The position numbers and the translations under genes are program-made. A DNA stretch of 64,000 bases from a bacterium (GTDB lineage Bacteria; Myxococcota_A; Bradymonadia; UBA7976; UBA1532): NCBI GenBank assembly GCA_030426085.1, contig JAUHYW010000038.1, positions 1 to 64,000 on the forward strand, read 5' to 3'. Shown one piece after another: positions 33,990 to 41,512 of the stretch. The notes beneath the pieces were generated by a model. The model searched no databases. It worked only from the letters and a program-made list of their open reading frames with translations, and was not told the DNA's origin. Positions within the stretch are counted from its first letter, which is position 1. Each line of letters opens with the position of its first letter.

Positions 33990-34197
33990 GGCGGGGTCCC
34001 TCGCGGCCGGTGGGCGCGGGCCGGGCCGGCCGCGCCTCGGTGGTGTGTACCCGGAGCGGGCCCCGCGGGCAAGAGGCACACGCGCCCCCGCTCGCCGTGA
34101 CGGCCTCGGGTCAATTCGACGGCAGGGGTTGCAACCGGCCGTTCATCTGTTCAACCTTCCCCCTCTCCGGGTCCGAACTGACGAAGCGAGGTGTTCG

Positions 34198-36960
34198 ATG
34201 CCGGCAACCGCGAGGCCCCAAGCGCTGGTGATCGTCGAGTCCCCCACCAAGGCGCGCACCATCCGCAAATTCCTCGGCGAGGGCTTCACGGTCGAGGCGT
34301 CGATGGGCCATGTGCGGGACCTGCCGTCGTCGGCCAGCGAGATCCCGGCCTCGGTCAAGGGCAAGCCCTGGGCCCGCCTCGCGGTCAACGTCGACGACGG
34401 CTTCAAGCCGGTCTACGTGGTGCCCGGCGACAAGAAGAAGGTCGTCTCCGAGCTCAAGAAGGCGCTCAAGCAGGCCGAGGTCCTCTACGTCGCGACCGAT
34501 GAAGACCGCGAGGGGGAGTCGATCGGCTGGCACCTGCTGCAGCTCCTCAAGCCCAAGGTGCCCACCCACCGCATGGTGTTCCACGAGATCACCCGCGAGG
34601 CCATCGACAAGGCGCTCGCCAGCCCCCGGGCCGTCGACCAGCAGCTCGTGCAGGCCCAGGAGGCCCGGCGCATCCTCGACCGGCTGGTGGGCTACGTCGT
34701 CTCGCCGCTGCTGTGGAAGAAGGTGCGCCCCCGGCTGAGCGCCGGGCGGGTGCAGAGCGTGGCGGTGCGGGTGCTCGTGCTGCGCGAGCGGGAGCGCATG
34801 GCCTTCGTCGCCGGCCGCTGGTGGGATCTGAAGGCCACCGCCGAGAAGGCCGGCACCCGGTTCGACGCCCAGCTCGCCACCATCGACGGCACCACCGTCG
34901 CCTCGGGGCGCGACTTCGACGAGCACACCGGCGCGCTCAAGCCCGGGCGCAAGGTGGTCCTGCTCGGCGAGGCCGAGGCCACCGCGCTGCGGGGCCGGCT
35001 CGACGGGCGCCCGCTGACCGTCGGCGACATCCAGCGCAAGGTCCAGACCCGGCGGCCCTACCCCCCGTTCACCACCTCGACGCTGCAGCAGGAGGCCAAC
35101 CGCAAGCTCGGCTTCACCGCCCGCACGACGATGCAGGTCGCCCAGCGGCTGTACGAGAACGGCCACATCACCTACATGCGGACCGACTCGGTGCACCTCT
35201 CGGGGCAGGCCATCGGCTCGGCCCGCTCGATGATCGAGCGGCGCTACGGGGCCGAGATGCTCTCGCCCAAGCCGCGCAACTACACCACCAAGAGCAAAGG
35301 CGCCCAGGAGGCCCACGAGGCGATCCGCCCGGCGGGCACCCGCATGGCGACCGCCCAGGAGCTGGGGCTCTCGGGGCCCGAGGCCCGGCTGTACGACCTG
35401 ATCTGGAAGCGCACCGTCGCCACCCAGATGGCCGACGCCAAGGTGGCCCTGACGACCGTGCGGCTGACGGTGGACGACCCCGAGACCGGGCGCACCATCG
35501 AGTTCCGGGCCAGCGGGCGGCAGGTGGTGTTCCCCGGGTTCTTCCGGGCCTACGTCGAGGGCAGCGACGACCCCGAGCAGGTGCTCGACGACCGGGACCA
35601 GCCGCTGCCCGAGCTGACCGAGGGCGAGGCGATCGCGCTCGCCGAGCTGACCGCCGCCGACCACGAGACCCGGCCCCCGGCGCGCTACACCGAGGCCTCG
35701 CTGGTCAAGGCGCTCGAAGAGCAGGGCATCGGCCGGCCGAGCACCTACGCCTCGATCATCGACACCATCCAGCACCGGGGCTACGTCCAGAACATCAGCC
35801 GGCAGCTCGTGCCGACCTTCACCGCGATGGCGGTGACCCGGCTGCTCGAGGAGACGCTGTCGAAGGTGGTCGACGTCGAGTTCACCGCCTCGATGGAGAG
35901 CTGGCTCGACGACATCGCCGAGGGCACCGACGCCGAGAAGTACCTCGAGCGGTTCTACAAGGACGAGCTGCTCGACGGGGTGGCCCAGGGCGAGCAGATC
36001 GACCCCCGGTCGGTGTGCACCCTCGACGGGGAGCGCTTCGGCCCCTACCGCATCCGGGTCGGGCGCTACGGCCCGTTCGTGGAGTACGACATCGAGGGCG
36101 CCGAGAAGCCCGGCTCGTTCTCGCTGCCCGAGGAGGCCGCGCCGGCCGACGTCGACGTGCCCTTCCTCGACACGCTGCGGGCCAAGGCCGAGAAGGGCGA
36201 GTCGCCGCTGGGCGAGGACCCCGAGACCGGCGAGCCAGTGTACGTGCGGGTGGGCCGCTTCGGGCCCTACGTGCAGCTCGGCGAGCGCACCGACGAGAAC
36301 CCCAAGCCCAAGCGGGCCTCGCTGCCCCCGGGCATGGACGTCGGTGATGTGACCTTCGCGGTGGCCGTCGACATCCTGGCGCTGCCCCGCCCCATCGGCG
36401 AGCACCCCGAGGACGGGGTCGCGGTCGAGGCGGGCATCGGGCGCTACGGGCCCTACGTCAAGCACGGCAAGACCTACGCCTCGCTGAAGAAGACCGACGA
36501 CGTGCTCGCCATCGGGCTGCCCCGGGCGCTCGAGCTGCTCGCCGAGAAGAAGAGCCGCGGCCGCAAGACCGAGCCGCTGCGCGAGATGGGGGCCCACCCG
36601 GAGGACGGCAAGCCGGTCAACGTGCTCGACGGCCGCTTCGGGCCCTACGTCAAGCACGGCCGGCTCAACGCCTCGCTGCCCAAGGGCACCACGGTCGAAG
36701 AGCTCACGATGGATCAGGCGGTGGCGCTGCTCGAAGCCCGCGCGGCCCGCAAGGCCAAGCGCGGCGGCGGGCGCAAGACGACGACGGCGAAGAAGACCAC
36801 CGCCAAGAAGCCCGCCGCCAAGAAGACCACCACGAAGAAGACCACGGCCAAGAAGTCGACCGCGAAGAAGGCCACCGCGAAGAAGCCGGCCGCCAAGAAG
36901 ACCACTGCGAAGAAGCCGGCCGCCAAGAAGCCGGCCGCCAAGAAGCCCCCCACCGAGTAG
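34198..36960 (+). CDS. topA: DNA topoisomerase I with Lys/Ala-rich tail
   Basis: A 920-residue type IA topoisomerase that relaxes negative supercoils. The TOPRIM domain holds VIVESPTKA and TDEDREGE (residues 100-107, Mg2+ site); the active-site Tyr is Y326 in YMRTDS. RPSTYASIIDTIQ and later segments complete the core. Instead of C4 zinc fingers, the C-terminal part has at least four RFGPYV-type repeats (GRYGPFVEY, GRFGPYVQL, GRYGPYVKH, GRFGPYVKH). It ends in about 70 residues of Lys/Ala/Thr repeats (AKK units), like a histone H1 tail. GAGGTG precedes the ATG at 34198. The 3' end borders the inverted 42-bp repeat arrays. Confidence 0.95.
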   Translation: MPATARPQALVIVESPTKARTIRKFLGEGFTVEASMGHVRDLPSSASEIPASVKGKPWARLAVNVDDGFKPVYVVPGDKKKVVSELKKALKQAEVLYVATDEDREGESIGWHLLQLLKPKVPTHRMVFHEITREAIDKALASPRAVDQQLVQAQEARRILDRLVGYVVSPLLWKKVRPRLSAGRVQSVAVRVLVLRERERMAFVAGRWWDLKATAEKAGTRFDAQLATIDGTTVASGRDFDEHTGALKPGRKVVLLGEAEATALRGRLDGRPLTVGDIQRKVQTRRPYPPFTTSTLQQEANRKLGFTARTTMQVAQRLYENGHITYMRTDSVHLSGQAIGSARSMIERRYGAEMLSPKPRNYTTKSKGAQEAHEAIRPAGTRMATAQELGLSGPEARLYDLIWKRTVATQMADAKVALTTVRLTVDDPETGRTIEFRASGRQVVFPGFFRAYVEGSDDPEQVLDDRDQPLPELTEGEAIALAELTAADHETRPPARYTEASLVKALEEQGIGRPSTYASIIDTIQHRGYVQNISRQLVPTFTAMAVTRLLEETLSKVVDVEFTASMESWLDDIAEGTDAEKYLERFYKDELLDGVAQGEQIDPRSVCTLDGERFGPYRIRVGRYGPFVEYDIEGAEKPGSFSLPEEAAPADVDVPFLDTLRAKAEKGESPLGEDPETGEPVYVRVGRFGPYVQLGERTDENPKPKRASLPPGMDVGDVTFAVAVDILALPRPIGEHPEDGVAVEAGIGRYGPYVKHGKTYASLKKTDDVLAIGLPRALELLAEKKSRGRKTEPLREMGAHPEDGKPVNVLDGRFGPYVKHGRLNASLPKGTTVEELTMDQAVALLEARAARKAKRGGGRKTTTAKKTTAKKPAAKKTTTKKTTAKKSTAKKATAKKPAAKKTTAKKPAAKKPAAKKPPTE

Positions 36961-37001
36961 CCGACCCCCGCGCCGTCGGCTCGATCACCCGCACGCCGCG
37001 A

Positions 37002-37477
37002 GTCCGGGCCGACCCCCCTTCGACCGCACTCACGCCGAAAGTCCCGATCCGACCCGCCCGCTCGCTCGCCCTCGGGGCTGGAGTCCGGGTCCGACCCGCC
37101 CGCTCGCTCGCCTTCGGCCCTGAAGCCCGGGTCCGACCCGCTCGCTCGATCGCCTTCGGCCTCGAAATGCGGGTCCGACCCGCTCGCTCGATCGCCTTCG
37201 GCCTCGAAATGCGGGTCCGACCCGCTCGCTCGATCGCCTTCAGCCTTGAAGTCCAGCTCCGACCCGCCCGCTCGATCGCCCTCATCCTTGAAGTCCAGCT
37301 CCGACCTGCCGGCTCGACCGCCTTCGGCCCTGAAATCCGGGTCCGACCCGCCCGGTCGATCGCCTTCGGCCCTGAAGTCCGGGTCCGACCGACCCCGCCG
37401 AGTCGTCCGGGCAGATTTCGGGCGGGTCCGACCCGGCCACCAGGCCGGACGACGATCTGCGAGACGGGTCCGACCCA
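37002..37477 (-). repeat. 42-bp repeat array A, dyad core CGGGTCCGACCCG
   Basis: About eleven units follow topA. The 13-bp core (6-bp inverted arms around one base) is perfect at 37086, 37128, 37170, 37212, 37338 and 37423, nearly perfect at 37465 and 37380, and degenerate at 37044, 37254 and 37296. Spacing is 42 bp except one 43-bp step at 37380-37423. The 42-bp period is four DNA helical turns, so all cores would face the same side. Read on the minus strand the unit matches array B. Because 42 is divisible by three, open frames with 14-residue repeats appear on both strands, but none has a credible start or codon pattern. Confidence 0.85.
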
Positions 37478-37633
37478 TCCGTGAAAACCGTCGCTGATCG
37501 GGTGAGGCACCTCGAAGGTGTCCGCCCGCCCGGCGGGGGTTCTCTCACCCACCGACGACCCGTCCGCCAGGCCCGAAGCCTCGTCGCGCGACCGCTGCCA
37601 CCCGGACTGCAAGCGCCGAAGGCGATCGAAGTG

Positions 37634-37900
37634 CGGGTCGGACCCGGACTTCAGCCCCGAGGCCTATAGATCTCACGGGTCGGACCCGGACTTCAGCCCC
37701 GAGGCCGATCGATCTCACGGGTCGGACCCGGACTTCGGGCCCGAGCCCGCCCCCGCCCGCGGGTCGGACCCGGACTTCAGCCCCGAGGCCGATCTCTCCC
37801 GCGGGTCGGACCCGGACTTCAGCCCCGAGGCCGATCGATCTCACGGGTCGGACCCGTACTTCGGGCCCGAGCCCTCTCGCGCCGGCCGGTCGCACCCGTT
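37634..37900 (+). repeat. 42-bp repeat array B, inverted relative to array A
   Basis: Six perfect cores CGGGTCGGACCCG start at 37634, 37676, 37718, 37760, 37802 and 37844, with a decayed seventh at 37886, all exactly 42 bp apart. The unit begins with the same 21 bases as the reverse complement of array A, but here on the plus strand, so the two arrays form a large inverted repeat around a 156-bp non-repeat centre (37478-37633). The step between the last core of A and the first of B is 169 bp, close to four units. The array runs to within 20 bp of the next gene's stop codon. Confidence 0.85.
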
Positions 37901-37919
37901 CGGCCGCCGCCGCGCGCCG

Positions 37920-38276
37920 TCAGTCCCAGGTCCAGGGCGCGGCCTTCGCCGCCGCCGACAGCGCCTCGAGATCGTGGAAGACCCCGTGCAGCAGCGCGGC
38001 GAGCTCTTGCAGCGCCTCCAGATCGTCCCCGTACGCCACGAACATGCCCGCCTCGGGGTCGAGGTCGAACCGGCCCTCGAGCTCGGGCGCCTCGGTGGCC
38101 ACGAGGTGGTCCGCCACGTCGGCCCAGCCGTAGCCCCCGGGGTGGCGCCCGGCGGCTTCGAAGGTCTCCATCGTCGGCCCCATCCGGCTGTCGGAGAGGA
38201 TCAGGCCGTAGCGCACCCCGTCTTCGTAGGGGTAGAGCAGAAACGGGCTCCAGGTCTCGTCGTCGCGCTCGTCCAT
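37920..38276 (-). CDS. Imm51-like immunity protein
   Basis: A 118-residue acidic protein without signal or membrane segment. WSPFLLYPYEDGVRYGLIL, GGYGWADVADHLV, APELEGRFDLDPEAGMFVAYGDDLEAL and the final helix match the pattern I know for the Imm51 family, which neutralises polymorphic toxins. No toxin gene is adjacent, so it would be an orphan immunity gene, protecting against neighbours' toxins or left from a lost toxin module. GGAG precedes the ATG. Its 3' end abuts repeat array B. Family assignment is from memory of motifs and should be treated as probable. Confidence 0.6.
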   Translation of the reverse strand: MDERDDETWSPFLLYPYEDGVRYGLILSDSRMGPTMETFEAAGRHPGGYGWADVADHLVATEAPELEGRFDLDPEAGMFVAYGDDLEALQELAALLHGVFHDLEALSAAAKAAPWTWD

Positions 38277-38351
38277 CGTGTGGCTCCGGGCAGTGAGCGG
38301 CGCATGGTGCCAGGGGCGAAGGCCGGGGTCGAGGGGTGGATCGCCCGGGAC

Positions 38352-38900
38352 CTAGTCGGCTTCGCTGCTTCGCTCGCTACCCCGAGCCCGAATACGGGCG
38401 AGAAGAGAGTTGAGGACAGCCGTCGTGGATGGCGCCTGCAGAATCTTGCGCAGATACGACAGGAACTCCTCCTCGGAGTGCGCGTTCGGATAAGTCACGC
38501 GCTTGCGGTATCGCTTGATACGAGTCGTCGTCGGGCCACGGGTGAATCCGAACACGCTTCTTGCGCCCTCGTGCACGATCTCCTCCTCGACCACCCGATC
38601 CCCAAGGAACGTGTCCTCCTCCTCTTCCTTGACGACCTTGGCCACCGGCTCAGCAATCGCCACGGCCGGGAAGGACAGTTCGGCGCCGTGCTCGACCCGA
38701 AATAGGATGTGGCGGTAGTCGAGAGACGGCGCTTCGACGACGAACTCGAGCTTGACGCTCCCGTCGTCCTCGGTGCCCTCGATGTGCCCCTTCAGATGCC
38801 CGGCTGTCCGCGCGCCGAGGGCCTCGGCCTGCTCCTGGAGCAGTTCGAGGGGTGTCCGCGTCTCCAGATCGAGCGAAGGCCACAGTCCAGCGTCAGACAT
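38352..38900 (-). CDS. Unknown protein paired with an EEP-family nuclease
   Basis: A 182-residue soluble protein. The N-terminal half is beta-rich (GSVKLEFVVEAPSLDYRHILFRVEHG), the middle has a highly acidic run KEEEED, and the C-terminal third is basic and helical (RIKRYRKRVTY, FLSYLRKILQ). I do not recognise a family. Its ATG overlaps the stop of the upstream EEP gene by 8 bp (ATGTCTGA), so both are co-translated. Base composition of this pair looks less GC-rich than its surroundings, consistent with acquisition by transfer. Confidence 0.6.
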   Translation of the reverse strand: MSDAGLWPSLDLETRTPLELLQEQAEALGARTAGHLKGHIEGTEDDGSVKLEFVVEAPSLDYRHILFRVEHGAELSFPAVAIAEPVAKVVKEEEEDTFLGDRVVEEEIVHEGARSVFGFTRGPTTTRIKRYRKRVTYPNAHSEEEFLSYLRKILQAPSTTAVLNSLLARIRARGSERSSEAD

Positions 38901-39708
38901 CGGGCAACTCCAAGGTGAAGAGGAGGGGGAAGTGATCAGAGGCAGAGGGGTGACCGTCAGCGGATGCGAGGGGGCGACCCGCGACCGCGTCCACGATCTG
39001 TATGTCGGTCAAGGCATCCACGAGGACCGGGCGCACGAGGACCTGATCCAGCATGTGCCAGAACCTGTTGATGTGGTGGCCCGAGTTGTTGAAGAAGTAG
39101 GTCCCGGGTGGACCCATCATCACATCTCCCCACATACCCCACATCGCGTTGTAGAAGTAGGGATATTCCACGCCCTTGACGATCCGCGAACCACGACGGA
39201 CGGTCACGCGATCAGCGAGCGCATGCAGCCCCGTGGCCTTGACCATCCCCGCCTCGAAGGGGTCCATGTTCAGGTCGCCGACGAGCAGTGTACGTCGCTG
39301 AGGGTCCTGCGCGTCTTCGTATCTTCGAATCAAATCGCCCAGATCACTCGCCCCCTCCTCCCGATCAATGTCTTCGGCGAAGGACTTGCTGACGAGATGG
39401 GCGACGACGAGTGTGCAGCCACCGAGTCTGTACAGGGTCGCGTATGGAAAGTTTTCGTCATTCTGCGCGGTGTGGAACTGCGCGTGCGGCAACCTCGAGA
39501 TTGCGCAGATGCGAGACCGAGGCGGCCGAAGCGCGTCGGAGAACACGTCGGTCACGAGCCGTTCGTTGAGGTATCTGGCGATCTCACCGCCATCGATTTC
39601 GGGCTTCTCGGCGAGGAGAACGAGATCCACCGCGTGCTCTCGAACAAGGTCGGCTACGAAGTCCAGCGTAGCCTCGCGGCGCTTGAGGTTCCAGAACAGG
39701 GCCTTCAT
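38893..39708 (-). CDS. Endonuclease/exonuclease/phosphatase family protein
   Basis: A 271-residue EEP-fold protein. The family motifs are FWNLKRR (first Asn), LLVGDLNMDPFEAG (the DLN metal site), and SASDHFPLLF (the final catalytic Asp-His). A Glu in LLAEKPEIDG supplies the metal ligand of the second strand. The family covers DNases, phosphodiesterases and phosphatases, so the substrate is open. The long insertion with PYFYNAMWGMWGDVMMGPPGTYFFN is unusual. No signal peptide is present. It is coupled to the unknown 182-residue gene and may be a defence or stress module; this is inference from pairing and low-GC look. Confidence 0.75.
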   Translation of the reverse strand: MKALFWNLKRREATLDFVADLVREHAVDLVLLAEKPEIDGGEIARYLNERLVTDVFSDALRPPRSRICAISRLPHAQFHTAQNDENFPYATLYRLGGCTLVVAHLVSKSFAEDIDREEGASDLGDLIRRYEDAQDPQRRTLLVGDLNMDPFEAGMVKATGLHALADRVTVRRGSRIVKGVEYPYFYNAMWGMWGDVMMGPPGTYFFNNSGHHINRFWHMLDQVLVRPVLVDALTDIQIVDAVAGRPLASADGHPSASDHFPLLFTLELPDV

Positions 39709-39769
39709 CAGAGCGGCAATCTACGCCGGTACGCGGCGCCGCCCAACCCGGCCCGCCCGGCGCACTCAC

Positions 39770-41512
39770 TCACACCGGCGGCAGCGTCATAGTCACCACC
39801 GGCCACGGCTCGAACCGCTCGATCGTCAGCCCGCCGCCCTGGATCTCGACCAGCCGGTGCAGCAGTAGTACCGGGGCGCCGCGCAGGTCGCCGGGGCCGG
39901 GGCGGGCGCGGCGGGCGTCGGCGTCGGCGGCGCGCCACTGCTGCACGACCGCCGCCCGATCGGACGGCTCGCCCTCGGCCGAGACGACCTCGATGCGGGC
40001 CTCGACCCCGCCGCTCCGGGGGTGGGTGAAGGCGATCTGCACCTCGCCGCGATCCATTGCGTCGATGAGGCTGCCGGCGGCGATGTACAGCGCGCGGGCG
40101 GTGTGGGCCGGGTCGAAGCGGGCGGCGGGCTGGGTCTCGCCGGCGGCGGCGTAGAGCGCGACCCGGATGTCGACCTGCTCGAGCGGGTCGGGGCGGACCT
40201 GCTGGCGCAGCATGCGGGCGAGGTCGGCGGCGGTGGTCGGGGCCGGGGCGAAGCCGGTCGAGCGCACCGAGGCGGCGCCCGGGCTGCGCAGCCCCTCGAG
40301 GCGGCTGAGGTCGAGCAGGGCCAGGATGAACCGCAGGAGGCCGTCGCCGCTGCGCCACAGGGTGCCGAGCTGGCTGCGCTGGCGGGCGTCGATCGGGCCG
40401 TCGATCTCGGCGAGCAGGACCTCGCTGAAGCCGAGGATGCTGTTGAGCGGGCTCTTGAGCTCGTGGCTGAGGTGGGCCAGGAATCGGGCCTTGGCCGCGT
40501 CGGCCCGCCGCCGCTCGGCCGCCGCCCGCCGCAGGGCGCTGCGCTGGGCGGTGAGGCCGGCGAGGGTCGCGTCGAGCGCCCGGGCGACGGCGGTGGTCTC
40601 CCACAGAGCGACGGCCGGCGGCGGCGGCGGGCTGGGGTCGTCGTCGTTGATGTGGCGCAGGGTCTCGCCGATGCTGGCGAGGTCGTCGGTGACGGTGCTC
40701 GCCAGCCGCCGGCCGGTGACCGCGGCGAGCAGGATGAGGCCGGCGAGCAGGCCGTAGGGCAGCAGGCCGAGGCGCAGCTCGTCGGGGCGCTCGCCGTTGA
40801 GCCGGGCGGTGACGCTGGGGGGCAGGGCGGCGGCGAACTCGGCCCGCTCCAGCTCGCCGGGGAGCTGCTCTGCGATGGTGCGCGCCATGCGCTCGAGCCG
40901 CTCGGTGAAGTAGGCCCCGGCCTCGACGGCGTAGGCTTCGCTGTTGCCCTCCTGCACCAGCAGCAGGCCGACGGCGCAGATGACGACCGGGACCTGCAAC
41001 GCCAGCGCCAGCCGGCCGGCGAGCGGCTGGCGGATGCCGCGCACCGGGCCGGCGCCGGGCGGGCCGGCGGCGTGGCGCCGGAGGATGTGGCGCGCCCCGA
41101 GGTATAGCCCCAGCACCGGCCACAGCGCGACGACGTAGGTGATCGCGCCGACGGCGACCGCGTCTCCGGCCGGGCCGCCCCGGGCCATCATCCAGGCGGC
41201 GGTCGTCACCCCGAAGGCCAGCGCCCCGACGAAGCCGCCCCGCACCAGCTCGACCGGGAAGTCGTGGGCCAGCCGCCGGTGCTCGGGGTCGGCGGTGGGC
41301 CGGGCCCCCAGCCGGCGCAGGGGGCGGCCCATCCACACCTGGGCCAGCGCGAGGGTCAGCAGCGCGCCGGCGGCGTAGAAGATCTGCCAGTCGCGGCCGG
41401 GGGCCCGGGGGCCGCTGAGCTCGGGCACGGCGATCACGGTGAAGGCGGTCGAGGCCAGCCCGGCGAGGAGGGTGTACAGCCGGATCGCGTCGAGGGGGTG
41501 CAGGCGCCTCAT
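39770..41512 (-). CDS. Sensor kinase with intact His box but degenerate ATP-binding domain
   Basis: A 580-residue membrane protein with about six membrane segments in the first 290 residues, an extracytoplasmic stretch with YAVEAGAYFTERL, a HAMP-like linker, and the dimerisation box LSHELKSPLNSILGFSEVLL, phospho-acceptor H350. The C-terminal domain keeps the length and end pattern of a HATPase (LLLHRLVEIQGGGLTIE). However, the N box Asn, the G1 DxGxG and the G2 GxGxG are all missing (IAAGSLIDAMDR, VVSAEGEPSD, RGAPVLLLH). It therefore should not bind ATP. It overlaps the upstream kinase gene by 4 bp (ATGA); that kinase has the reverse defect. Confidence 0.8.
   Translation of the reverse strand: MRRLHPLDAIRLYTLLAGLASTAFTVIAVPELSGPRAPGRDWQIFYAAGALLTLALAQVWMGRPLRRLGARPTADPEHRRLAHDFPVELVRGGFVGALAFGVTTAAWMMARGGPAGDAVAVGAITYVVALWPVLGLYLGARHILRRHAAGPPGAGPVRGIRQPLAGRLALALQVPVVICAVGLLLVQEGNSEAYAVEAGAYFTERLERMARTIAEQLPGELERAEFAAALPPSVTARLNGERPDELRLGLLPYGLLAGLILLAAVTGRRLASTVTDDLASIGETLRHINDDDPSPPPPPAVALWETTAVARALDATLAGLTAQRSALRRAAAERRRADAAKARFLAHLSHELKSPLNSILGFSEVLLAEIDGPIDARQRSQLGTLWRSGDGLLRFILALLDLSRLEGLRSPGAASVRSTGFAPAPTTAADLARMLRQQVRPDPLEQVDIRVALYAAAGETQPAARFDPAHTARALYIAAGSLIDAMDRGEVQIAFTHPRSGGVEARIEVVSAEGEPSDRAAVVQQWRAADADARRARPGPGDLRGAPVLLLHRLVEIQGGGLTIERFEPWPVVTMTLPPV

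Follow-up and report, generated by a model that had tools for sequence, protein, structure and literature searches.

What fills the gap between topA and an Imm51 immunity-like gene in the window (the whole 64,000-nucleotide stretch of DNA analyzed), and does it belong to topA? From the topA stop at 36960 to the Imm51 gene (37920-38276), 959 bp are filled by two opposite tandem arrays of a 42-bp unit, a 13-bp dyad core plus a 29-bp spacer, arranged head-to-tail in each arm. A recount bears out the inventory given in the earlier note: two inverted 42-bp arrays, the length of the gap, a 156-bp center (37478-37633) and exactly 12 perfect CGGGTCSGACCCG cores, with decayed cores in addition. Perfect cores start at 37086, 37128, 37170, 37212, 37338 and 37423 on the left and in the center, and at 37634, 37676, 37718, 37760, 37802 and 37844 on the right. 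The element spans 37002-37898 and lies among the following features.

34045..36960, plus strand: topA (DNA topoisomerase I) with a lysine-rich 15-bp-repeat tail; a neighbor, outside the element
37002..37392, plus strand: left arm, head-to-tail 42-bp units (core and 29-bp spacer)
from 37002, plus strand: outermost left unit, decayed, resembling the outermost unit of the element on contig C107 of the same genome
37044 (decayed), 37086, 37128, 37170, 37212 and 37254 (2 mismatches), plus strand: left-arm cores
37296 (decayed), 37338 and 37380 (2 mismatches), plus strand: inner left-arm cores
37393..37633, no strand: center, with cores at 37423 and 37465 (1 mismatch)
37634..37898, minus strand: right arm, reverse-complement units; cores from 37634 to 37844 all perfect, 37886 with 2 mismatches
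37920..38276, minus strand: Imm51 immunity-like gene (PF15595, E=2.2e-25)
38352..39708, minus strand: two genes, one of 182 aa with no Pfam match and a 271-aa Exo_endo_phos gene, with lower third-position GC (0.77-0.78)

TRF places the left array at 37039-37390 (8.4 copies, 87% match) and the right array at 37600-37871 (6.5 copies, 83% match), both with 0% indels. The 42-bp step that the earlier note described is upheld within the arms, but the lattice as a whole departs from it, with a +1-bp step on either side of the center and a right arm that is +2 bp off the left-arm lattice. The arm-to-arm distance, from 37380 to 37634, is 254 bp, or 6x42+2. At the geometric midpoint (the 13-mer 37507-37519), the usual core is replaced by an alternative dyad, CACCT-CGA-AGGTG (37508-37520), which is 1 bp off. 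A translated repeat with coding-type substitution bias would have spoken against the earlier note, and a coding tandem repeat was rejected. Differences per codon position among units are 0.17, 0.17 and 0.21 (0.21, 0.20 and 0.22 in the spacer only); this lack of codon-position bias, together with +1 steps that break the frame, indicates that the window array is non-coding.

The array is not confined to this locus. Searching the genome and its relatives, as the earlier note had proposed, recovered further elements at six or more other places of this genome and a single one in a sister species. The host genome (G000, 10.15 Mb in 178 contigs) is a fragmented assembly in which several arrays end contigs. 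It holds 44 exact cores against 3 for a reversed-pattern control and 23 core pairs at exactly 42 bp against 0, which excludes chance. By DNA search, the two-armed element is also present on C51, C87, C107 and C154. The elements on C64 and C116 are partial and run into contig ends, so more copies may exist. C54 and C177 hold weaker relatives of the repeat, and in the sister species G001 one complete element lies on contig 52. Arrays occupy seven or more loci in the host genome, none of them within a credible gene as judged by the gene calls of a simple composition-based script. A separate repeat was noted at C12:44844, C96:35645 and C129:73930, where GGGTCGGACC pairs occur at 43 bp (GGGTCGGACCTCACTCGAAGGGGTGATCCC...) with weak 42-bp periodicity nearby.

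The copies follow a common geometry. In elements with two arms, the left-arm units share one orientation, the right-arm units are their reverse complement, and the unit consensus is related between arms; orientation is constant in each arm and flips once, at the center. Core spacings in eight arrays equal 42n or 42n+1 in 104 of 106 cases (87 of 42 bp, 6 of 43 bp and the remainder 84, 85, 126, 127 or 169 bp), the sole departure being a chance match that divides one step into 29 + 13. Exactly two +1 steps, one to either side of the center, are present in every complete element (C51, C87, C107, C154, the window and G001, in that order below). Arm-to-arm distances are 254, 170, 170, 254, 254 and 86 bp, which is 42k+2 in all six (k = 6, 4, 4, 6, 6 and 2), and they vary in 84-bp steps only. 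A core dyad occupies the exact midpoint in five of the six (C51, C87, C107, C154 and G001), and in the partial C64 element a core stands at +127, where one is expected.

Sequence conservation is concentrated in the core, where between-arm consensus identity is 0.92, compared with 0.66 in the spacer. Outer units match better by position across loci than inside one locus. For example, unit C64_L1 agrees at 41/42 positions with C107_L1 and 40/42 with C116_L0, but at no more than 29/42 with units of its own locus. This agreement by position suggests that whole elements were probably copied as blocks. Furthermore, the finding of unit variants in opposite arms suggests exchange between arms.

Comparison with the sister species separates the element from topA. 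The topA gene of G001, the one sister species used for the synteny comparison, is syntenic and encodes a protein of 89% identity in a locus of 87% DNA identity. From the topA stop to the next shared gene is about 100 bp in G001 and about 2.85 kb in the window; the array, the Imm51 gene, the 182-aa gene and the Exo_endo_phos gene (36947 to 39809) are all missing there. Beside topA, positions 37920-39808 form a small island of three minus-strand genes without a counterpart at the syntenic sister locus. Either gain in the window or loss in G001 could explain the difference. Similarly, at the C51, C107 and G001 elements inter-species homology breaks off at the edge of the array or no more than about 35 bp from it, and these arrays are absent from the orthologous place in the other species. 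Of the four places compared, not one is conserved across the two species. Elsewhere in the genome, arrays adjoin unrelated genes and most copies are not near topA. Given the empty syntenic sister locus and the unrelated neighbors of the other copies, the element is not a conserved topA feature, and the link to topA drawn in the earlier note is not supported.

What the copies keep, and what they let vary, suggests a different role. A conserved dyad core, a free spacer, a four-turn pitch and symmetry about a midpoint dyad are consistent with a dispersed, BIME-like extragenic palindrome element that would act as a phase-locked scaffold for a putative dimeric, sequence-specific DNA-binding protein. 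This explanation is the best of those considered and is held tentatively, as something close to an even call. The dimeric-protein binding array of the earlier note would fit the same properties, namely conservation of the core above the spacer, a fixed four-turn pitch and a symmetric, phase-locked layout. One dimer would dock per core, docked neighbors would meet on one helix face every four turns, and the complex would be organized symmetrically about the central dyad. The compact nucleoprotein body so formed may anchor, condense or insulate DNA, or may serve the maintenance of the element itself. Copies may have spread blockwise, either together with acquired gene islands or next to IS200-type element ends. 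That such elements constitute a new class of chromosomal nucleoprotein site, with two converging phased four-turn arms, a central dyad and a putative assembling protein, copied as a unit, is considered unlikely.

Arrays in other genomes bear on the importance of pitch. When spacings of about 28-58 bp were allowed and 42 was not preselected, palindromic pairs in KLAP118 (G006, same family) were all at 42 bp, and those in KT_bin-1087 (called an uncultured Sandaracinus) were mostly at 42 bp, with one at 41 and one at 43. The Alcaligenaceae genome G061 has the same palindrome type at irregular spacings. KT_bin-1087 carries at least eight loci of 3-5 units in a single orientation, with a spacer that is different from that of the window and common to its loci. 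In a phylum-wide sample of Myxococcota, 9 of 379 genomes gave matches. The complete genomes G212 and G368 have one-armed arrays of 18 units (pitch 40-43 bp) and 8 units (pitch 41-42 bp), respectively, both with core TGGGTCSGACCCA; core type and pitch are as in the window element, and spacers are unrelated. This recurrence of a pitch of about 42 bp with unrelated spacers in other myxococcotan lineages supports the scaffold. The two-armed form has so far been found only in the genus of the window. A scan of genome contigs required 42-bp spacing, so spacing there was not used as evidence; many of its matches (e.g. in Pseudomonas) carry the pattern on one strand only, as does the one pattern match in IMG/VR. 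A plasmid or phage origin was rejected after a plasmid collection searched with the window array and a phage collection searched with the C107 array gave no match.

Several observations count against a scaffold. Duplication of units by itself preserves a constant pitch within an arm, and the drift of pitch from 40 to 43 in G212 indicates that phasing is not absolute. Because the elements of the genus have a common descent, the +2 offset and the 42-bp pitch that they share do not count as separate events. Moreover, position is not conserved between sister species, unlike that of most essential chromosomal sites, the array is absent from most of the other myxococcotan genomes sampled, and the central dyad of the window copy differs from the standard core. 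A second dyad at half-pitch (21 bp), attractive by eye in KT_bin-1087, was dropped because it is only moderate there (3.7 of 6 pairs) and did not turn up in other arrays.

Chief among the rivals is a selfish REP/BIME- or foldback-like repeat with no host function. Its core would be a hairpin recognized by a Y1 (HUH) transposase, and the repeat would have spread with IS200-type elements, been tandem-amplified and had its arms homogenized by conversion. Dispersal of block copies at non-orthologous places agrees with such an origin, as do the roughly 20 IS200/Y1-like genes of the host genome and the GGGTCNGACCC palindromes that flank REP-transposase genes of other bacteria. An IS-type end, GGCACCTYGATC, also abuts the first core exactly in C116 and C154 and lies within 12 bp of it in C51. 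However, the host Y1 genes bear GGTGCTTGGCACC-type ends and not GGGTCSGACCC, which is not enriched in the flanks of the G000 Y1 genes. Host IS200/Y1 elements were rejected as makers of the core because their own ends are a different palindrome. KT_bin-1087 and KLAP118 carry arrays but yielded no REP transposase match in a RAYT/REP transposase search limited by incomplete assemblies, and neither a GTAG nor a CGTC tag lies beside the core. The fixed pitch and central dyad are likewise unlike REP clusters, whose spacers vary and in whose families head-tail dimers are rare (PMC3733652). With respect to transposon or MITE features, the elements have an outer unit in common at the left edge, no target duplication is apparent by eye and, in two of them, that edge adjoins an IS-type end. 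A selfish repeat is a possible explanation, although a doubtful one. It may hold in part alongside the scaffold, since a genuine binding array can travel on a mobile element.

The IS200/Y1-like transposase genes (P0001 and P0002; weak NF047646 match) form a REP-transposase-like multi-copy family of about 20 copies on C2, C7, C14, C34, C37, C73, C87, C88, C89, C96, C145, C160, C162, C177 and C178 (L172-L185). Its ends comprise a conserved left end, GCGCAACAA...CTGATCGATGA, and a tandem right end, GGTTGGCACC / GGCACCTTGATC. On C116 (L048:9744-10224), a GGCACCTTGATC end followed by the first array core (CAGGTCCGACCCG or TGGGTCCGACCCG) occurs four times, twice mid-array, as if the array start and the IS-type end were copied together. 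On C87 (L046:7035-7451), about 2.2 kb away from the array and close to a gene for an IS200-like transposase, lies a gene with a strong match to eukaryote-type profilin (PF00235, E=2.6e-28), unusual in a bacterium and possibly contamination.

Alternatively, the arrays could be a neutral satellite, in which a GC-rich unit was tandem-duplicated, kept uniform by slippage and conversion, and dispersed by rearrangement. The location of arrays at conserved-synteny edges and contig ends would suit a satellite, as would unit variants common to both arms. A satellite does not predict core conservation far above that of the spacer, arms without indels although spacers diverge, two +1 steps and a midpoint core kept in diverged copies, or the recurrence of this core and pitch in other families whose spacers are unrelated. 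This reading, already disfavored, is improbable. The earlier note had held that random scattering as simple satellite DNA, with no conservation at the topA locus of relatives, would undo its proposal; conservation at topA is indeed lacking, but the copies are not randomly scattered satellite, as they share boundaries, center and lattice.

A device acting at the RNA level, in which the inverted arms, once transcribed, would pair as one very long hairpin or work as a bidirectional terminator or insulator, is still less probable. The plus strand folds to -523.7 kcal/mol, compared with a shuffled mean of -403.7 (z -20.7), as expected of any long inverted repeat, and the window array does sit between convergent genes. 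Other copies, however, lie between divergent or tandem genes, and in other families the arrays run in a single orientation. Neither terminator-like nor promoter-like sites were found with the array. An intrinsic terminator (hairpin and T tract) was rejected, with 0 sites at 36900-38000, and such a terminator would need the A-tracts of the unit on the other side of the core hairpin. Rfam returned only two mir-2518 matches, far below cut-off and due to chance, so that a known RNA family was also rejected.

Finally, a topA-linked supercoil sensor or topoisomerase site, to which adjacency in the window, the reported binding of gyrase by E. coli BIME-2 arrays (PMC2817692) and, as a weak hint, an array of two units less than 1 kb from topA in G341 might point, is highly improbable, as no array is found at the syntenic topA of G001 or at topA of KT_bin-1087 and most copies lie away from topA. 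The G341 array, on contig C164 (L296:4583-8515) of another myxococcotan family, is about 950 bp upstream of topA with a Uma2-like gene in between; it is the second array noted close to a topA, but its proximity is probably coincidence.

The papers searched contained neither the core string nor a description of the architecture, and several known systems resemble the element in part. Eukaryotic Foldback (FB) elements are dispersed and have two inverted arms of short tandem repeats around a short center; in contrast, the present element is bacterial, with a fixed helical pitch and a central dyad, and no target-site duplication or transposase was seen. Plasmid centromeres with iterons, such as parC of R1, also have binding sites at regular phase, grouped in two clusters on either side of a middle segment, whereas this element is chromosomal, is present in several copies and has converging arms of 42-bp pitch. 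No partition families were found among the neighboring proteins scanned beside the arrays. Tn7/TniA-type ends are inverted sets of repeated protein-binding sites that face each other, as the arms do here, but in the element no terminal signature, target duplication or cargo between its arms was seen. A CRISPR array was rejected: spacers recur within an arm, and the scan of flanking proteins gave no Cas family.

Of the kinds already described, the BIME/REP cluster (PMC2817692, PMC3733652) comes nearest; protein-binding and chromosome-organizing roles have been proposed for it (PMC2817692). Both consist of GC-rich palindromes that lie outside genes and form clusters of several units scattered over one genome. 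The element differs in having no GTAG/GTGG or CGTC tag in any family, with AGTC (or GGA/CCG) before the core in the unit consensus, and no cognate RAYT flanked by its palindrome was found. Its units are head-to-tail in each arm rather than alternating in orientation, with an exact 42-bp pitch and two-fold symmetry about a central core. Because tag, cognate transposase and alternating orientation were each sought and not found, the element is not filed as a BIME; it may still function like one. Dispersed bacterial palindromes are usually read as REP leftovers of transposases. If the scaffold reading is true, an element that keeps its core, pitch and symmetry while spacers drift, in several copies per genome and with relatives across Myxococcota families, would point to an ordered, undescribed protein assembly on DNA, whose protein could be a chromosome organizer, a partition-like protein or a transposase.
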